A DNA stretch of 64,000 nucleotides, taken from assembly GCF_001483965.1 (NCBI RefSeq), contig NZ_CP010796.1, forward strand, positions 558,001 to 622,000, written 5' to 3'. The stretch is from Carnobacterium sp. CP1. Lineage in GTDB: Bacteria; Bacillota; Bacilli; Lactobacillales; Carnobacteriaceae. Below, piece by piece: positions 5,212-18,405 of the stretch. Below the pieces are notes generated by a model, which did no database searches, was not told where the DNA came from, and saw nothing but the letters and a program-made list of their open reading frames with translations. The first letter of the stretch is position 1, and the number at the start of each line of letters is the position of its first letter. The translations under genes and the position numbers were made by a program.

Positions 5212-5268
5212 TTTTAAAAAAAGATAAAATAGACTGCAACTCTCATGGACGAATTGCTCAGTCTATTT
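5212..5268 (-). terminator. intrinsic terminator of the 79-residue gene
   Basis: Read on the minus strand, AAATAGACTG pairs with its complement around a 22-base loop and is followed by a T-rich tract. It sits directly at the stop codon of the small gene. Confidence 0.7.
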
Positions 5269-7334: not shown

Positions 7335-7886
<552 letters not shown>

Positions 7887-8167: not shown

Positions 8168-9094
8168 ATGGGTGGAGTCATCGAAAGCATTCAATTAGAA
8201 CATTTTGTTTCAGTCGAAGCATTAACGAACGAAGAAGTACTAGCTCTGATCGGTCGTGCTGGTGAATTTAAAAAAGGAGTTCATCCTTCGTATGACGATA
8301 AGAAATATGCTGTTAACCTGTTTTTTGAAAACAGTACACGGACACATAAAAGTTTTGAAATGGCTGAAAATAAAATGGGAATCAAAGTCATCGATTTTGA
8401 ACCTTCGACAAGCAGTGTAACAAAAGGAGAGAGCTTATACGATACCGTACTGACGATGTCAGCTATTGGAGTAGATGTCGCGGTTATTCGCCACCCATCA
8501 GAGGCTTTCTATTCTGAATTGATCGCTAGTCCTACGATTACCTGTTCAATCATCAATGGCGGCGATGGTGCAGGACAACACCCGAGTCAATGCCTGTTAG
8601 ATTTAATGACGATTTATGAAGAGTTTGGTTATTTTGAAGGTCTAAAAGTTGCAATTGTTGGCGATTTAACTCATTCTCGAGTTGCGCGATCAAACATGCA
8701 GATGTTGAAACGCCTTGGAGCTACACTATACTTCTCCGGTCCGCCTGAATGGTACGATGAATCGTTTGATCAATATGGACAATACGTTCCAATGGATGAC
8801 CTGATCAAAATAGTTGACGTGATGATGTTGCTGCGCATTCAACATGAGCGGCATGAAACGTACGGAAACTTTTCTAAACCTGCTTATCTAACAATGTACG
8901 GCTTAACAGAAAGCAGAGAAAGCAAGATGCTGGACCACGCCATTATTATGCACCCTGCTCCGGTTAACCGCGATGTTGAACTGCAAAGTACTTTACTGGA
9001 ATGTCCACGGGCGCGAATCGTGGCTCAAATGGCTAATGGCGTCTTTACAAGAATGGCCATCTTAGAAGCAGTATTGGCTGGTCAAAAAGGGTAG
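8168..9094 (+). CDS. pyrB: aspartate carbamoyltransferase catalytic subunit
   Basis: Condenses carbamoyl phosphate with aspartate, the first committed step of pyrimidine synthesis. The 308-residue protein keeps the carbamoyl-phosphate motif [12 protein letters not shown], the flexible-loop Ser/Lys region [21 protein letters not shown] and [11 protein letters not shown]. All active-site elements look intact, unlike carA and carB downstream. AAGGGGGA precedes the ATG. Confidence 0.96.
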
Positions 9095-9137: not shown

Positions 9138-10433
9138 ATGACACTATGGATCAAAAATGCAACCACGATAGATCAACAAGGGAATCTTAACTTAACCGAA
9201 CTAGTGATTAAAGAAGACAAGATTGCTGCAATAGGGGATGATGTAGCTTCTTTAATCAAAGGGAAAACAGAACCGGAGAACATCATTGATGCTAAAGGAG
9301 CTTTACTGACTCCGGGTCTGATCGATGTTCATGTTCATTTAAGAGAACCAGGTTTTTCTTACAAAGAAACCATTAAAACAGGTACGGAGGCAGCGGCAAG
9401 AGGCGGATTCACTACCATTTGCGCAATGCCAAACGTAAACCCGGAACCGGATACGCCTGAAAAAATGCTGGCTCTTCAGGAAAAAAATAAAGCGGATGCG
9501 GTTATCAAAGTATTGCAATACGCTCCAATTACTAAAGGGCTGCGCAGCGATCATTTAACCGATCAAAAAGCTTTAATTGCTGCAGGAGCATTTGCCTTCA
9601 CCAATGATGGAGTCGGAGTGCAATCAGCTGGGACCATGTATTTAGCAATGAAAGAAGCCGCTAAAAATAATGTAGCGATCGTGGCCCATACAGAAGATGA
9701 TTCTTTATTGTTTGGCGGCGTGATGCACGAAGGCAAGCGTTCACGTGAACTGGGTTTGCCAGGGATCTTAAACATCACTGAAGCGAGCCAAATTGCACGT
9801 GACGTTTTGATCAGTGAGGCAACTGGAGCGCATTACCACGTTTGTCATGTTTCAACAAAAGAAAGTGTCCGAGTTATCCGCGATGCCAAGAAAGCCGGCA
9901 TCCATGTAACGGCTGAAGTCGCGCCTCATCACTTGATTCTGACAGAAGAGGATATTCCTGGAGATACTAGTCTGTATAAAATGAATCCTCCTTTAAGAAG
10001 CAAAGAAGACCGTGCGGCTTTAATTAAAGGTTTACTTGATGGTACAATTGATATGATCGCTACAGATCATGCACCGCACAGCAAAGAAGAAAAAGAAGGC
10101 AGCATGATTGGATCTCCATTTGGGATCGTCGGAAGCGAAACAGCCTTTTCTTTACTTTATACACACTTGGTTGAAACAGGCATTTTCACATTGAAACAAG
10201 TGGTTGACTGGTTAACCGTTCAACCGGCCAAAATATTCAACTTGGATAGCGGTATTTTAGCGGTTGGCAAACAAGCTGATTTAGCCTTGTTTGATTTAAC
10301 TACTGCCAAAGACATTCGAGAAGAAGACTTTTTGTCGCTGTCAGCCAATACACCTTTTATTGGCTGGAAAGTAAAAGGCACGACTGTTATGACGATCGCA
10401 GATGGAAAGATTGTATATGAGGAGGTAATTTAA
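9138..10433 (+). CDS. pyrC: dihydroorotase
   Basis: Zinc amidohydrolase that cyclises carbamoyl aspartate to dihydroorotate. The 431-residue length and layout fit the class I bacterial type. Metal-ligand motifs are [10 protein letters not shown] (about 60-70), the central His-containing segments VAHTED and YHVCHVST, and the catalytic Asp motif [12 protein letters not shown] (about 311). It lies 43 nt after pyrB and 2 nt before carA. It looks fully functional. Confidence 0.96.
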
Positions 10434-10435
10434 GG

Positions 10436-11539
10436 ATGGATCGTTTACTAATTTTAGAAGACGGCACTATCTTTAAAGGCAAAGGATTCGGTTCTTTGAT
10501 TGATACGATTGGGGAAGTTGTTTTTACAACGGGAATGACCGGCTACCAAGAAACGATAACCGATCCTTCTTACAACGGTCAAATTTTAGTTTTTGCTAAT
10601 CCTTTAGTGGGCAATACCGGCATAAACCGAGATGACTATGAATCCATCGAATCGATTTGTAAAGCAGTTATTGTCAAAGAATTTGCCCGTGTTCCAGCTA
10701 ACTGGCGCAGTCAAATGAACTTGGATGAATTTTTAAAAATCAAAAAAATACCCGGGATTTCGGGTATCGATACGCGGAGACTAACACGTCACATTCGTGA
10801 ATCCGGCATTATGCGCGGTATGTTAATCGACGCTCAAGATGACTTAGTTCATGCGTTTGACCAGTTAAGAGCAACGGTCTTGCCTAGCAACCAGGTATCG
10901 CAAGTCTCGGCTAGCCGTTCTTATGCTAGTCCAGGAGTAGGAAGAAATATCATTGTGATCGACTTTGGTTTAAAACACAGTCTTTTAAAAGAATTAAACA
11001 AACGCAATTGCCATGTTGTCGTTTTACCTTATGATACAACAGGAGAAACCATTTTAAACTTGGCTCCGGACGGGGTCATGTTGAGCAACGGCCCAGGTGA
11101 TCCAAATGATTTGCCGCAAGCTCTTAAAATGGTTCAAGAGTTGCAAGGTACGGTTCCTATTTTCGGGATTGGTCTGGGCCACCAACTGATCGCGCTTGCT
11201 AATGGAGCTAAAATCAGCAAATTGAAAGTAGGTCATCATGGTTTTAATTACGCTGTAAGGGAAGAGGCAACTGGTCGAGTTGATTTCACTTCACAAAACC
11301 ATCGCTTTGCATTAGAAAAAGAAACACTCGATGTTGATCAATGGATCATCACTCATACAGAAATTAAAGACAGCGCTATAGCCGGAATAAAACACCGCTA
11401 CCAGCCTGTTTTCAGCACTTTGTTTCAGCCTAACGCAACACCGGGGCCGCATGACGCTGTTCATCTATTCGATCAGTTTATGGAAATGATCGATGGTTGG
11501 AAGGAGGCAAGAGAGCATGATCAACAAGGCGAAAGCTAA
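10436..11539 (+). CDS. carA: CarA-like carbamoyl-phosphate synthase small subunit, catalytic triad lost
   Basis: By overall sequence this is CarA, 367 residues, with a normal N-terminal half ([30 protein letters not shown]) and a class I glutamine amidotransferase C-terminal half (SNGPGDPND). The amidotransferase centre is changed at every catalytic position. The nucleophile motif GICLGHQ reads GIGLGHQ (Gly246 for Cys). GHRGxNHPV reads GHHGFNYAV (266-274). The His-Glu motif YHPEASPGP reads FQPNATPGP (Gln331, Asn333). It should not hydrolyse glutamine. The frame is intact, AGGAGG lies upstream, and the stop overlaps carB by 23 nt. I call it a likely pseudoenzyme rather than a pseudogene. Confidence 0.85.
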
Positions 11540-14504
11540 AAAAGTTCTAGTGATTGGATCAACTCCAAGCGACAGTGATTCCTCAGCTAATGTGGATTAC
11601 GGAACAGCCCAAATCATTCTCTCTTTAAAAGAGATCGGCTATGAAGTTATTCTGGTTGATTCGAATCCAACCGCATTGGCAACAAATAAAGATAGAGCGG
11701 ATAAAGTTTACATCGAACCTCTGACCGTTGATTTTGTTTCACAAATCATTCGAAAAGAACGGCCAAATGAAATCTTTCCTGTCTTACACAACTCTTTAAG
11801 TTTTTATCTGATGGAAGAGTTGGCTCATTCAGGACTGTTAGAAGAACTGCACATCAAGGTACTGGGAACAAGCCAACAGACCATTCAAAAAATTAAACAG
11901 CCCGAAACTTTTCGGAAATGGATGCAGACCCTCAAAGAACCAACACGAGCAGGACAAGGCGTTTACTCACAGACAGAAGCCTTGGGTTTTGCTGAAAAAG
12001 AAGGCTTTCCGCTGCTTATTCAGTCTCAGACCCCTACTGGCGAATGGGTACAAGAATGGTGTTCTACTAATGAAAAGGTAAAAAAAGTAGCAGCTGCTCA
12101 TTTTCTTTTATCGCCGCACACCCCTATTTTTATTGAAACGGGTCTGACCGGTTATAAATTGATTCAATTTGAAGTATTGCGGGACAAAAAAGATCAGGCT
12201 TTAGTTGTTTCTACGTCAGAGAATTTGAAGACAGATGAATCCGATCAAAAAACTATGATCATGATCACCCCTAGCCAAACATTGACGGATCTTGATTACC
12301 AATTACTCCGTGATGCAGCATTAACGATTGTCCGCGGATTAGAGATCGAAGGAGGATGTACGATCCAGTTCGCTTTTCATCCAAACCGTTTTATGTATTA
12401 TGTGACTAAAATAGATCCTGGTTTTACTCGTTCAACTCTTTTAGTCAGCAAAGCAACAGGGTATCCAATCATCAAATTGTCTGTTAAACTAGCTGCCGGT
12501 TTAACGTTAGATACATTAAAAAATCCGTTTAATGAAACGGCTTATCTCGAATACGAACCTACGTTGGACTACATTACTACCTATATTTCGAATTGGTCTA
12601 ATGGGACATCTGTAAAAAGAAACTCTCCTAAAAAACAAATTACCGGAGAAGCAATGGCTATTGGCCGAACACTTGAAGAATCGATTTTGAAAGCTTTTCG
12701 TTCTTTGGATACAGCAGATGGCGTAACGTTACTGAAAACAGCCACTCACAGTAACGACGAAGAAATAGCAGAGCACCTACTGCATGCTCAGTATGATCAT
12801 CTCGCTTATTTACTCGAAGCTCTTCGCCGCGGATACACGATTGAAGAGTTAAGTGAGGTAACAAAAATCGAGTTGTTTTTCTTAGATAAATTAGCCCATA
12901 TCATTGAGATCGAGCACGAGCTCGAACGTCACCCTAGTGATCTTACTGCATTAAGAAGTGCTAAAGAATATGGATTTTCTGATTCAGTTATTGCTGCACT
13001 ATGGAAAACAACCGCTGACGAAGTAAATAGATTGCGTAATGCACATGATATCGTTCCTGTTTATAAAGCTATTGATAGCTCGGCGGGAGAAATCGCTGCA
13101 CAATCCACATGTTTTTATAGTACGTATGAAGAAGAAAATGAAAGTACGGCAATCGGTAAAAAGTCCATTTTACTTTTAACTGCCAGCACAGGCATGAACG
13201 ATCCAAGAAGAGGATACGATAGCGCTCTTTTACAAGCCATAACGGCTATCCAAGAAGCTGGCTATGAAGCAATCTTATTAAACAGCCATCCAGCATCTCT
13301 TTCAACGGATTTTTCTGTCCAGGCTAAAACGTATTTGGTCCCGTCAACGGTGGAGGATATCGTACAGGTAGTTCAGTTGGAAAAACCTATAGGCGTGATG
13401 GTTCAATTTGGAGGCCCAGAGGCACTTGAATTGTCTAAAGCGTTAACTCCTTTAGAAATCCCTGTCTTGGACGCTGTCCCGTCGTATTTAGTCAGCAAAG
13501 AGGCAGAGAATGACGGGATGATCGAACTTATTCAACCGTTGCTGGCAGAATTGGCTATCCCATATGCTGCACCGGAGAATCAGGCAATGGCTGATGAACA
13601 AATCGAAGTCATCAGTATTTCTGATGGAGAAAGAGTACTATTTCCAGGGTTGATCGAACACATTGGACACCTGAATGGAGTAGGGACAGAGCCCGTGATG
13701 GTTCATCCTACACAAACTCTTTCTGAACAAAAACAGCAGAAAATCAAAGAATATGCCGCTCGTCTAGCACTTGCTTTAAAATGGACGGGCATCACCACTA
13801 TGTATTTCACGATTCAGCAAGAAAACATCCAGTTTCTTAATCTAACACTAGGGACAACTCAAACGATTCCTTTTTTAAGCAAAGCAACGGGTTTCCCTAT
13901 CATTCCGACGGCCGTTCAAGTTCTCTTGGGTAACTCTTTAGCAGCTCAATTAGATTTAAAAGAAAACACACAAACAATAAGCCCCGCCGTTTATGTAAAA
14001 GCCCCTGTTTATTCATTTTCATCAGAACCTGAAATAGACTGGATGGGGGAAGTTATGGGATCTGATCGAACGTTAGGCAAGGCAATATTTAAAACCTTTG
14101 AAGCCGCCCAAGTTCATTTGTCAGAATTTGGTTCTATCCTTTTGCTGCTTTCCGAAAAAGATCAAGATCAAGCCGAAGAATTAACTAGGCGATTTCAGCA
14201 AATAGGATACCGTATGCTAACTACTCAACCATTAAGTCAACAATTAGCTGAAAAAGGTTTAGTAGTGACTGCGCTGGATCCATCTTTTGAGTCTATCGAT
14301 AAAAGCAGTGCAAAAAGAATCAATAAAAAGGAAATTCAATTAGTGATCGACACTAGAGCATCTAAAACGAAAACAGTAAAAGAACAGTTGACCATTCGTC
14401 AAGCAGCGCATGAACAAAATATTCCTCTGCTTACTTCTATTACAACGATTTCAGCTGTATTAAATTTCTTGGAATTGCGCACGTTCACAACAAATCCGAT
14501 TTAA
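11517..14504 (+). CDS. carB: CarB-like carbamoyl-phosphate synthase large subunit, both ATP sites degenerate
   Basis: A 995-residue CarB homologue (usual about 1060-1070) in one open frame. The start is the ATG 11 nt after GGAGG inside carA. Scaffold motifs persist: [49 protein letters not shown]. Functional motifs do not. First half: GSGPIIIGQ reads GSTPSDSDS (14-22), GGQT reads HNSL (91-94), the phosphate-loop Arg is Gln169 and the glycine loop is gone, and ExNPR reads KIDPG (298-302). Second half: ExNPR reads NLTLG (775-779) and about 70 residues of the ATP-grasp domain seem deleted near residue 690. The C-terminal allosteric-type domain remains. Catalysis is not expected. Confidence 0.85.
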
Positions 14505-14546: not shown

Positions 14547-15476
14547 ATGAGTCGTTTAACAGTAACATTACCGGGATTGGATTTAAAAAATCCTATTATG
14601 CCGGCCAGCGGAACGTTTGGCTTTGGCGATCTATACATGGATCGCTACGATTATAGTGTCTTAGGAGCTCTGATCATCAAATCAACAACTGCAGAGCCGC
14701 GGATAGGAAACGCTGAGCCACGTTACCATCATTTAGAAAATGGAGTATTAAACGCAGTCGGTTTACGAAACCCAGGTGTAGATGTAATCGTAAATGAAAA
14801 ATTACCAGCGTTAGAAAAATTTGACACGCCTATTATCGCAAGTGTAGCAGGAACGACGATTTCCGATTATGTAGCGGTAACAAAAAAACTCTGTCACTCA
14901 CCAATTGTGAAAGCTCTTGAAATCAATCTGTCTTGTCCAAATGTAGCAGATGGAGGATTAACATTCGGTTCAAATCCTGAAGCTGTTTATCAGATGACAA
15001 AAGCAGTCAAATCAGTGGCTACTGTTCCAATTTATGTTAAATTAACACCTAATGTAACGGATATTACTGAAATTGCCAAAGCTGCTGAAGCAGGCGGAGC
15101 AGATGGCATCAGTATGATCAATACGCTTTTAGGAATGAGCATCGATTTAAAAACTAAACAGCCTTTTTTAGCCAATAAAACAGGAGGTTTATCAGGTTCA
15201 GCTATAAGCCCCATTGCTGTTCGAATGGTTTACCAAGTTTCTCGGGCTGTATCGATTCCAGTCATTGGGATGGGAGGCATCTCGACAGTCGATGATGTTC
15301 TTGAGATGCTGATGGCAGGTGCTAGCGCAGTAGCCATAGGGACAGCTAATTATAACAACCCTATGATTTGTAAAGAATTGATTGAAGCTTTACCAGATCG
15401 AATGGATGAACTAGGAATTACATCTATTGAGTCCTTGATCAAAGAAGTAAAGGCAGGCCAGAATAGTGAATACTAA
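14547..15476 (+). CDS. pyrD: dihydroorotate dehydrogenase, class 1B type
   Basis: FMN enzyme that oxidises dihydroorotate to orotate. The 309-residue protein aligns by eye with the Bacillus class 1B enzyme: [22 protein letters not shown], the catalytic-Cys motif EINLSCPNV (about 125-133), NKTGGLSG and IPVIGMGGI. Class 1B enzymes normally pair with the iron-sulfur/FAD subunit PyrK, whose gene would sit directly upstream; it is absent here. TTGGAGGG precedes the ATG. The gene overlaps pyrF by 11 nt. Confidence 0.94.
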
Positions 15477-16182
15477 ACCAATTATTGCGTTAGATTTTTC
15501 AACAAGTGAAGAGATAAAACAGTTTTTAAGTCATTTTAAAGATGAATCATTATTTGTCAAAGTAGGGATGGAGCTCTATTATCAAAACGGTCCTGAAATC
15601 GTTAAGTACATGAAAGAACTAGGACATGAGATTTTTTTAGATTTGAAATTGCATGATATACCGAACACAGTCAAGCGTTCAATGAAAGGTTTGGCAGCTT
15701 TGGATATCGATATGATCAATGTGCATGCAGCTGGAGGAAGTGAAATGATGGAAGCTGCAATGGATGGTATTCTTGCAGGCACTCCAGCCGGCAGTACGCG
15801 GCCGGATTTAATTGCCGTCACTCAACTGACTTCTACTACACCCGAAGCTATGCGGAGAGAACAGCTGATCGAAGTACCTTTATTGCAAAGCGTTATCCAT
15901 TACGCTCAATTGACTCAAACAGCCGGATTGGATGGAGTTGTTTGCTCTGCGTTAGAAGCACGGCTAATCAAAAAAAATACCGCTTCAGACTTTTTATGTG
16001 TCACACCTGGAATCCGACCTAGCGGCGAAGAAAAAGGCGATCAGAAACGGGTCGCTACACCAGCATCAGCTTATGAAGAAGGGGCCAGCCACATCGTGGT
16101 CGGGCGTCCCATTACATTGGCCCAAGATCCCGTAGCAGCTTATCACTTAATCAAAAATCAATGGAACGGAGACAACCATTAA
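15466..16182 (+). CDS. pyrF: orotidine 5'-phosphate decarboxylase
   Basis: Decarboxylates OMP to UMP, the last step of the pathway. The 238-residue protein carries the family motif [14 protein letters not shown] with the Asp-Lys-Asp charge network (about 58-71), plus VTPGIRPSG and HIVVGRPIT for phosphate binding. The start is GTG inside the end of pyrD, an 11-nt overlap that suggests translational coupling. The stop abuts the pyrE ATG. Confidence 0.96.
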
Positions 16183-16812
16183 ATGACAATCGAAAAAACA
16201 ATTGCAAAGCACTTATTAGATATTAAAGCAGTAAGTTTAAACCCAAATAATCCCTTTACTTGGGCAAGTGGAATGAAAAGCCCAATTTATTGCGATAACC
16301 GCATTACAATGGGGTATCCGGCGGTTAGAAAAGAAATCGCCCAAGATATGGCTGATTTGATTAGAGAAAATTACCCTTCCGTAGAAGTCATTGCCGGTAC
16401 CGCTACAGCTGGAATTCCGCATGCGGCGTGGGTCGCTGAAGTATTGGATTTGCCTATGGTTTACATACGCAGTAAAGCAAAAGAACATGGTAAAGGCAAT
16501 CAAATAGAAGGACGGTTAGTACCCGGTCAGAAAATGGTCGTGATCGAAGACTTGATCTCAACTGGCGGCAGTGTCATTGATGCTTGTGGAGCAGCCGCTA
16601 AAGAAGGGGCAGAGATTCTTGGAGTAGCTGCTATTTTCACTTATGAATTGCCAAAAGGATTAGAAAATTTCAAAAAACACGAAATTGCTTTAAAAACATT
16701 AACCAACTATACAACTTTAATTGAAGTTGCTTTAGAAACGAAAGCTATTGAACAAGAAGATGTCAGCCTTTTAAAACAGTGGAAAAAAGATCCAGTGAAT
16801 TGGAAAAAATAA
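16183..16812 (+). CDS. pyrE: orotate phosphoribosyltransferase
   Basis: Joins orotate and PRPP to make OMP. The 209-residue protein has the orotate loop region [21 protein letters not shown] near the N-terminus and the PRPP motif [16 protein letters not shown] (about 118-133). The ATG directly follows the pyrF stop. It is the last gene of the operon; no strong terminator sits immediately after it, but one occurs at 17117-17152. Confidence 0.96.
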
Positions 16813-16849: not shown

Positions 16850-17152
16850 AAATAAAAAGAGAGTGAGATAAAAAGCGTTTAGACTCGAATCTTCTACCTC
16901 GCATCCCGTACCTAAGCAGCTAAAGCTGCAAGGGCTAAGGCAACTAGAGGGAATAAGCGCAGTATGGTCATAGACCATCGAGCATTATGTAGGAGCACAC
17001 TGTAGGCTAGCGCCTAAGTGTATCGTGTTTGTACGTAGCTAAAGCTACAACTGCCATGATAAAGTGGACGTCGGGTCTGCTTTTTGGAACACGTTTTAGA
17101 ATAAACATTCGGATATGCAAAGAGGATGAGACAAAAGTCTCATCCTCTTTTT
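16850..17152. repeat. structured intergenic element with many small hairpins
   Basis: No gene fits here. The stretch begins AGAGTGAGATAAAAAGCG and ends with the similar GAGGATGAGACAAAAG. Inside are short stems: GCAGC-TAAA-GCTGC (16916-16929), ATGGTC-ATA-GACCAT (16964-16978), a TAGGCTAGCGCCTA palindrome (17003-17016) and GTAGC-TAAA-GCTAC (17035-17048), where the first and last share the loop TAAA. The layout resembles dispersed intergenic repeat elements of Gram-positive genomes; copy number cannot be tested from one window. Confidence 0.5.
17117..17152. terminator. terminator between pyrE and the MFS gene
   Basis: AAAGAGGATGAGACAAAAGT followed by its near-perfect complement and a T-run. The A-run on the other side lets it serve the minus-strand MFS gene as well. 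Confidence 0.85.
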
Positions 17153-18405
17153 TAATTTAATAGGTTACTAGAACCAATAAAACGATTTTTAGCTGCGCCT
17201 TGACCACAAATGAAGAGCAACAGAGCTGCTCCTGCTAACAGCAATAACGGACTATCCCAGCTATTCGTTACGTCATGCAAATACCCAAAGAGCATGGGTC
17301 CTATTGCAGCAAGCAGGTATCCAAAAGATTGAGCCATACCGGATAATTCTGCTGCTTGATGTGCGTTTTCGGTTCGTAAGCCAAAAAACATCATTGATAG
17401 GCCAAAAGCACATCCTCCACCAATACCAATCAAGATAATCCATAAAATAATTAAACCCGAACCGCCATAAAGCAATCCCAAAATGCCTGTTATTAATAAA
17501 ATGGACGTTATGCTGACTAATAAACGTTGATCAGCCATACGACCAGCAACAAGGGGGATAATAAAAGTAAAAGGAAGCAAGGCCAGTTGCATCATGGAGA
17601 GTAGCAATCCTGACTGATCAGAACTTATTCCTTGTTGCATCAATATTTCAGGTAACCAAGCAATTAGGACATAGAACACCATCGATTGGAGGCCCATGAA
17701 TAGAGTTACTTGCCAAGCTAATGGTGAACGCCATAAATTGGCTTTAGCTTGTGTGGGTTTGGTATATGTCTCGGACGTTTTTAGATAGTGCTGTTTTTTC
17801 ATTTGCGGCAGCCAAAAGAAAATGGACAGAAAACTTAATATCCCCCAAATTCCTAAAGCTCCCTGCCAACCATAGCCTGATTTCATCATAATAGGGATGC
17901 TGATACCTGAAGCTATAGCTCCAAACAAATTCATCGAAATAGAATACACACCAGTCATTACCCCGATTTTTCCAGGAAATTCTCGTTTAATAAGACTAGG
18001 CAGCAAGACATTACACACAGAAATAGCGAGTCCTAGCATAGCTGTTCCAATATATAAATTAGCCGTACCAGAAATAGAACGCACGAGGATACCAAAGGTC
18101 AAAAAAATAATTGCGAATAAAATCATAAACTCTATACCAAATTTTCGTCCTAACTTAGGCACAAAAGGCGAAATAAAGGCGAAAGCGAGTAGAGGAAGTG
18201 TAGTAATCATACCAGCTAATGTATTCGATAATTGTAATTGATCTCTAATATGTCCAACCAACGGCCCGACTGAAGTTAAAGGAGCCCGTAGATTAGTCGC
18301 AATAAAAACGATGCCTAAAATCATCACCCATTCTTTTGATTGTTTCTTAACCTCTATGGTTGTTTTTATACGTTGGTCGGTATTAAATTGTTTTGGCAAA
18401 TTCAT
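17152..18405 (-). CDS. MFS transporter, CynX/NimT-type
   Basis: A 417-residue integral membrane protein with about 12 hydrophobic segments. The first segment reads VMILGIVFIATNLRAPLTSVGPL, which is the signature style of the CynX/NimT (cyanate or nitroimidazole-type) branch of the major facilitator superfamily. The substrate is unknown. AGGAGG lies just upstream of the ATG. An XRE-cupin regulator is encoded just upstream on the same strand, and a perfect 13-bp inverted repeat lies in the MFS promoter region, so local control is likely. Confidence 0.85.
   Translation of the reverse strand: MNLPKQFNTDQRIKTTIEVKKQSKEWVMILGIVFIATNLRAPLTSVGPLVGHIRDQLQLSNTLAGMITTLPLLAFAFISPFVPKLGRKFGIEFMILFAIIFLTFGILVRSISGTANLYIGTAMLGLAISVCNVLLPSLIKREFPGKIGVMTGVYSISMNLFGAIASGISIPIMMKSGYGWQGALGIWGILSFLSIFFWLPQMKKQHYLKTSETYTKPTQAKANLWRSPLAWQVTLFMGLQSMVFYVLIAWLPEILMQQGISSDQSGLLLSMMQLALLPFTFIIPLVAGRMADQRLLVSITSILLITGILGLLYGGSGLIILWIILIGIGGGCAFGLSMMFFGLRTENAHQAAELSGMAQSFGYLLAAIGPMLFGYLHDVTNSWDSPLLLLAGAALLLFICGQGAAKNRFIGSSNLLN

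Follow-up and report, generated by a model that had tools for sequence, protein, structure and literature searches.

The pyr operon of Carnobacterium sp. CP1 raises the question why a gene pair for carbamoyl-phosphate synthetase (CPS), carA-carB, is kept although the residues needed for catalysis are gone. The locus lies in a window of 64,000 nucleotides (contig NZ_CP010796.1, positions 558,001 to 622,000, forward strand), to which the coordinates given below refer unless another contig or locus is named. A preliminary description of this DNA had noticed the loss of the glutaminase triad in CarA only. That loss stood, but the case turned out to be wider: CarB appears to be dead as well, the losses are common to congeneric species and they recur elsewhere. 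With a probability of about 0.78, we read the window carA-carB pair as a catalytically dead CPS that became a pseudoenzyme and is kept for a non-catalytic function.

Active sites of CarA and CarB in the window

The operon is encoded on the + strand in the order leader, pyrR, pyrB, pyrC, carA, carB, pyrD, pyrF, pyrE. A PyrR-binding leader (RF00515, 7160 to 7286; Rfam 56.6 bits, gathering score 54) is located 5' of the gene for the operon regulator PyrR (7341 to 7886, ORF of 181 aa, 86–87% identity to congeners). The aspartate carbamoyltransferase (ATCase) gene pyrB (8168 to 9094) scored 354 bits with NF002032 (cut-off 263) and looks functional from its sequence, retaining the active-site motifs of ATCase. 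It is followed by pyrC for dihydroorotase (9138 to 10433, ORF of 431 aa), with 73% identity to two congeners (G001 and G003). The gene for the CPS small subunit, carA (10436 to 11539), starts with ATG and encodes 367 aa; it is classed here as a pseudoenzyme gene by alignment and predicted fold. It overlaps by 23 bases with carB for the large subunit (11517 to 14504), a putative pseudoenzyme of 995 aa with both ATP-grasp sites gone and a short C-half (1056–1061 aa in the aligned relatives). Purine-rich, ribosome-site-like stretches were seen by eye upstream of both starts. The genes pyrD (dihydroorotate dehydrogenase, 14547 to 15476), pyrF (OMP decarboxylase, 15466 to 16182) and pyrE (orotate phosphoribosyltransferase, 16183 to 16812) were assigned by their ORFs and by identity to congeners. 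A gene for a CynX-like MFS transporter (assigned by eye; 17152 to 18405, − strand) adjoins the operon.

The window CarA carries the motif FGIGLGHQ, in which Gly246 (GGT, 11171 to 11173) replaces the nucleophile Cys (C269 in E. coli), and the motif LFQPNA, in which Gln331-Pro-Asn333 (11426 to 11434; CAG at 11426 to 11428, AAC at 11432 to 11434) stands for His-Pro-Glu/Asp (H353 and E355). Aligned with E. coli CarA, the changes are C269G, H353Q and E355N, and the Cys-His-Glu/Asp triad of CarAB is thus represented by Gly, Gln and Asn. The substitutions reported in the preliminary description (GIGLGHQ, FQPNA and GHHGFNYAV) were reproduced base for base, and its claim that such a protein cannot hydrolyse glutamine by the known mechanism holds with these three residues. 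Cys and His are kept in all 16 non-congeneric relatives aligned. The third triad position is Asp, not Glu, in each of these 16, so the present lineage most likely replaced Asp by Asn at this position. The protein scored above both family cut-offs (TIGR01368, 424.5 bits, cut-off 307; NF009475, 463.7, cut-off 221).

In the N-half of CarB, R129 is replaced by P, R169 by Q, E299 by K, N301 by D and R303 by G. The C-half has a gap of approximately 60 residues; R715 is deleted, and Q829, E841, N843 and R845 are replaced by Y, N, T and G, respectively. None of these E. coli CarB sites varies among the 16 intact relatives. From work on the E. coli enzyme, the former five are ATP/Mg ligands of the bicarbonate-phosphorylating half and the latter five those of the carbamate-phosphorylating half, and both halves of the window CarB are accordingly devoid of their ligands. 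All three active sites, the glutaminase and the two ATP-grasp sites, therefore lack residues that do not vary among intact relatives. CarB scored above the cut-off of NF003671 (698.6, cut-off 599) and below that of TIGR01369 (691.4, cut-off 1027), and its branch is 2.66 changes per site long. The folds are predicted to be retained (CarA: pLDDT 85.4, TM 0.91 to E. coli CarA; CarB: pLDDT 77.7, TM 0.89 to E. coli CarB) in models that depend on homologous sequences and are no proof of stability. Missing catalytic motifs together with a retained, if predicted, fold are features of a pseudoenzyme. Of five residues of the allosteric domain, K954, T974 and N1015 belong to the UMP/allosteric site. T977 and K993 are UMP-site residues according to a published account (PMC6245113). 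Only T974 is left in the window CarB.

Congeneric copies and selection after the apparent loss of catalysis

The genus was sampled with five genomes, one per species and the window genome included. Three congeners (G001, G003 and G004) encode full-length CarA (361–367 aa) and CarB (1056–1059 aa), with the common losses C269G and H353N in CarA and R129P, R169M, E299G, R303C, R675P, G721N, G722E, N843H and R845H in CarB. Counting the window, C269G and the loss of H353 are found in 4/4 genomes of the genus with CarA, compared to 0/16 other relatives. The same distribution (4/4 vs 0/16) holds for CarB R129P, R169M/Q, E299G/K, R303C/G, R675P/D, the loss of E841, N843H/T and R845H/G. The four CarA form one clade and the four CarB form one clade in single-gene trees. 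A misread Cys codon at 11171 to 11173 is excluded, as the three congeners encode Gly by GGC, GGG and GGG; a sequencing or assembly error was ruled out, the same state being present in congeners with different codons. With GGT in the window, the codon thus drifts while Gly is kept. Intact triads in close relatives were named in the preliminary description as a finding that would refute it; they start in neighbouring genera, and the three congeners retaining carAB are also without Cys and His. All five allosteric residues (K954, T974, T977, K993 and N1015) are kept in these three. A second CPS was searched for in the congeners and not found.

In the sister species (G002), carAB is absent and pyrC is followed by pyrD, which indicates that the function of the pair is dispensable there. 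When the window species is compared with G002, protein identity rises from 72% for PyrC to 94–99% for PyrD and PyrF and 91% for PyrE (window ~14547 to 16812, L182 7453 to 9719); this jump suggests a recombination tract starting beside the carAB deletion site. In the pyrB gene of G002, one base appears to be missing from a run of T (L182, ~5235 to 5245); this is either a real frameshift or a homopolymer error. The pyr operon of G004 has lost its native pyrB, and none was found in the G001 stretch either. Both genomes carry a different ATCase-like gene elsewhere (L200, 5738 to 8807, in G004; contig C111 in G001), matching the window PyrB at 35%; that of G004 scored above the ATCase cut-off and adjoins pyrI-, pyrK- and pyrD-like ORFs (assigned by eye). 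A loss of ATCase in the genus was rejected on account of these genes.

Since the losses are common to the three congeners, the branches among them were taken as post-loss. Values of ω were obtained with our own implementation of a GY94-type codon model with F3x4 frequencies, not with published software. On these branches, ω was 0.050 for CarA (2ΔlnL 438 against ω = 1) and 0.053, 0.128, 0.092 and 0.042 for four regions of CarB (2ΔlnL 507, 100, 364 and 168). A smaller model with intervals gave 0.019 (0.009–0.033) for the CarA N-terminal domain, 0.072 (0.054–0.095) for the glutaminase domain and 0.040 (0.023–0.060) for the CarB allosteric domain; the living genes of the operon ranged alongside (pyrC 0.106, pyrD 0.036, pyrF 0.061, pyrE 0.047, pyrR 0.025). 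Pairwise dN/dS between G001 and G004 was 0.07 for carA, 0.10 for carB and 0.06–0.13 for pyrC, pyrD, pyrF and pyrE (pyrC 0.13), at dS of 0.31–0.50. Judged by these codon-model estimates, the dead CarAB of the congeners is under strong purifying selection, like the living pyr genes. Together with the full length of the proteins, this means that the protein is kept and not just an open frame. The ATP-grasp halves of CarB are relaxed approximately three-fold relative to the living CarB background (0.018 and 0.029), and no relaxation was found in the CarA N-terminal domain and the CarB allosteric domain. Because these two are the constrained parts, complex formation and effector binding are suggested as what is kept. 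On the window branch itself, ω was 0.06 for CarA (2ΔlnL 38), a weak value on a saturated branch, and 0.08–0.15 for CarB, with ω = 1 rejected for each region (2ΔlnL 7.4–25.8) on a likewise saturated and poorly determined branch. Purifying selection after the loss, as expected of a pseudoenzyme, is thus seen in the three congeners and in Tetragenococcus (see below), and in the window only on this saturated branch.

These values bear on ordinary decay, in which the pair would have become pseudogenes after a switch to arginine-derived carbamoyl phosphate and the open frames would be a matter of time. The missing carAB of the sister species is in its favour, as is the fast-evolving, shortened window CarB with its missing UMP-site residues. 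We regard decay as unlikely, since three congeners keep both frames at ω of 0.04–0.13 with neutrality rejected. Moreover, 245 of 589 columns identical in three relatives are changed in the window CarB without a single stop, compared to about 15 stops that neutrality would predict from these conserved-column changes alone, at 0.06 nonsense mutations for each nonsynonymous one. The view of the preliminary description that simple decay does not explain carA gains support here, with the caution that the window CarAB is the most degraded copy in its genus. As it is the most eroded and a sister species is without the genes, carAB may be on its way out in the window species.

Recurrence in other genera

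Relatives were taken as the best 80 of 549 CarA-like matches, a selection that favours sequences like the dead query. Cys269 is absent in 8 of these 80, namely in Enterococcus aquimarinus, E. alcedinis and Candidatus E. avicola (Ala), in four Tetragenococcus (Gly) and in one of two copies of Lactobacillus selangorensis (Gly). CarA of Loigolactobacillus rennini has kept the Cys and carries Leu for His353. A CarB match was obtained for 79 of these 80, and both metal motifs are missing in six according to the site table (four Tetragenococcus, L. selangorensis copy 2 and L. rennini). A search with TIGR01369, in which E. alcedinis was outside the set, returned one full CarB each for E. aquimarinus, L. 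rennini, T. halophilus and T. muriaticus and two for L. selangorensis. The CarB gene of Bavariicoccus seileri (L125) contains an in-frame stop.

A survey of 395 genomes with a dead-CarA pattern gave 69 matches in 66 genomes. Thirty were inspected, of which 10 proved to be CarA; among the other 20, which did not, three from one family are ObgE-like (by eye). Most of the 39 matches outside the inspected set resemble the ObgE-like ones. The pattern misses G001 and G004 and therefore undercounts. Seven of eight genomes labelled Tetragenococcus matched (G374 left out), and all seven were confirmed as CarA with Asn at His353. CarB has lost residues of the C-half in 7/7 of these loci, two of which have C-half deletions (1007 and 1009 aa) like that of the window. 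With one T. halophilus omitted, the remaining six loci gave ω of 0.039 for CarA and 0.106, 0.101, 0.143 and 0.063 for CarB, with neutrality rejected throughout.

A single origin of the dead CarA by transfer between the genus and Tetragenococcus was rejected on CarA (p-AU 1e-54). The corresponding test on CarB gave p-AU 0.174, window CarB and that of L. rennini being long branches that attract each other, and independent loss in the two groups is claimed on the CarA sequences only. Measured against 31 intact CarA references, 7 of 89 invariant columns are changed in G003, 9 in the window and 12 in T. halophilus; R123Q, C269G, A281C and H353N are identical in G003 and T. halophilus. With 33 intact CarB references (332 invariant columns), 78 are changed in G003, 88 in T. 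halophilus and 41 in both (20.7 expected). At these 41 sites, 11 substitutions are identical, compared to 2.5 expected from shuffling, which may reflect convergence or hidden exchange. Among the seven invariant columns of the CarB allosteric domain, none is changed in G003 and one in T. halophilus. By these counts, the losses cluster in the catalytic halves, and CarA and the allosteric domain are spared.

That the pair is still an enzyme, either with migrated catalytic residues or with one half performing a partial reaction (such as an ATPase dependent on bicarbonate or carbamate, or another kind of ligase), is improbable. The predicted fold is intact, the CarB of the three congeners retains E215, H243, N301, E761, H788 and Q829, and most Tetragenococcus loci keep R169, N301 and R303, with Asp at E299, all of which would fit such an activity. 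Against it, the metal-binding Glu residues E299 and E841 are lost in 4/4 genomes of the genus, the nucleophile is replaced by Gly, and three active sites were struck together. It is very improbable that the frames are kept only for the passage of ribosomes to pyrD-F-E, the protein itself not being needed. Polarity or translational coupling would agree with the close or overlapping spacing of carA, carB and pyrD, but it would select against stops and frameshifts and not on amino acids, for which ω is far below 1, and in G002 pyrD-F-E directly follow pyrC without carAB. An ammonia-dependent CPS with only the glutaminase lost, as in vertebrate CPS1, which has Ser for Cys (PMC4655335), appears to be true of E. 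aquimarinus and E. alcedinis and is hardly credible for the window, being refuted by the sequence, as both ATP-grasp sites are absent in window and congener CarB. In these two enterococci (L241, 4287 to 8539, and L139, 10001 to 14259, respectively), CarA carries C269A and H353Q and every checked CarB site is intact; their CPS, with the glutaminase lost and both phosphorylating halves present, is likely ammonia-dependent and a parallel to CPS1.

Carbamoyl-phosphate supply, putative function and known systems

The own genome of the window harbors one CarA locus and one CarB locus; a second intact CPS was not found in it with the CarA protein as query or with the TIGR01369 family. The genes arcA-arcB-arcD-arcC (names other than arcC assigned by eye) are arranged in a row as a complete arginine deiminase operon, with genes for arginine deiminase, ornithine carbamoyltransferase and carbamate kinase, and a second carbamate kinase is encoded in an allantoin/oxamate gene cluster. 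The latter kinase, in the oxamate carbamoyltransferase cluster, is a fusion with a DUF2877-like N-terminal domain that spans about 285 residues (L156, 7078 to 8880; C1, ~813077 to 814879). In G003, carbamate kinase and this partner domain match as separate stretches. Inside the allantoin cluster lies an ORF that resembles reverse transcriptases, by eye those of group II introns (L156, 2494 to 3402). The gene arcC is present in 5/5 genomes of the genus, and a carbamate kinase scored above the cut-off in all 18 family genomes, with intact or dead CPS; as intact CPS is included, the supply permits the loss without predicting it. In Thermococcus kodakarensis, which has no CPS, arginine-derived carbamoyl phosphate feeds pyrimidine synthesis via ornithine transcarbamoylase, and deletion of the carbamate kinase had little effect (PMC13260591). 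In the genus studied here, carbamoyl phosphate for pyrimidines would now come from arginine or citrulline, mainly via ornithine carbamoyltransferase, with a possible contribution of carbamate kinase. Such an alternative supply may have freed CPS from catalysis.

The function for which the pseudoenzyme is kept would be non-catalytic, possibly that of a metabolite sensor or scaffold for carbamoyl-phosphate metabolism. The CarA-CarB complex would most likely still bind ligands, with a glutamine pocket at the nucleophile-less site and a UMP-type site that is intact in the three congeners. In the window species, with the UMP-site residues and much of CarB gone, the function is probably weaker or different. 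Tentatively, Lactobacillales may have repeatedly converted CPS into a non-catalytic sensor, a complex that binds glutamine and UMP-type nucleotides and signals nitrogen and pyrimidine status to a carbamoyl-phosphate metabolism fed by arginine, be it to ATCase, to ornithine carbamoyltransferase, to carbamate kinase or to the operon itself; we consider this specific role possible and rather doubtful.

CPS is regarded as almost universal, and its presence is taken to prove that pyrimidines are made de novo. In the present case, full-length genes under selection, which pass or nearly pass curated CPS profiles, appear unable to provide carbamoyl phosphate. Six dead CarB score above the TIGR01369 cut-off of 1027 (those of the three congeners, T. 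halophilus, L. rennini and the second copy of L. selangorensis), and automatic annotation and metabolic models will label these organisms CPS-positive on that gene. The recurrent cases represent a repeated natural experiment on the use of a multi-domain allosteric enzyme after its catalysis is gone, with glutaminase-only loss in some enterococci as intermediates and the outright loss of carAB in G002 as the end point. A full-text search found no publication that describes a catalytically dead CPS for these bacteria, which is weak evidence of novelty, subscription papers being mostly outside its coverage.

Gene order, domain order, predicted folds and location in the pyr operon are like those of E. 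coli CarAB (PDB 1bxr and 1c30), from which the window pair differs in the missing glutaminase triad, the missing ATP/Mg ligands of both halves and the shorter C-half. Vertebrate CPS1 has kept an inactive glutaminase-like domain after the loss of the catalytic Cys (PMC4655335). The window CarA likewise retains a dead glutaminase domain; in contrast to CPS1, which has kept both phosphorylating domains, those of the window appear dead, and the closer bacterial counterparts of CPS1 are E. aquimarinus and E. alcedinis. For fungal CAD-like proteins, active or inactive dihydroorotase domains are noted (PMC6022934, section 3.1). They resemble the present case in that a dead enzyme domain of the pyrimidine pathway is kept in a complex; there it is one dead domain of a living multienzyme, whereas here a whole stand-alone enzyme would be dead. 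Pyrimidine carbamoyl phosphate would be derived through ornithine transcarbamoylase as in T. kodakarensis, which, unlike the window species with its retained dead CPS, has no CPS homologue. Fungal Dis3-like pseudonucleases (PMC8097288) are likewise described as having lost catalysis repeatedly while the protein was retained; the CPS case differs from them in fold and pathway.
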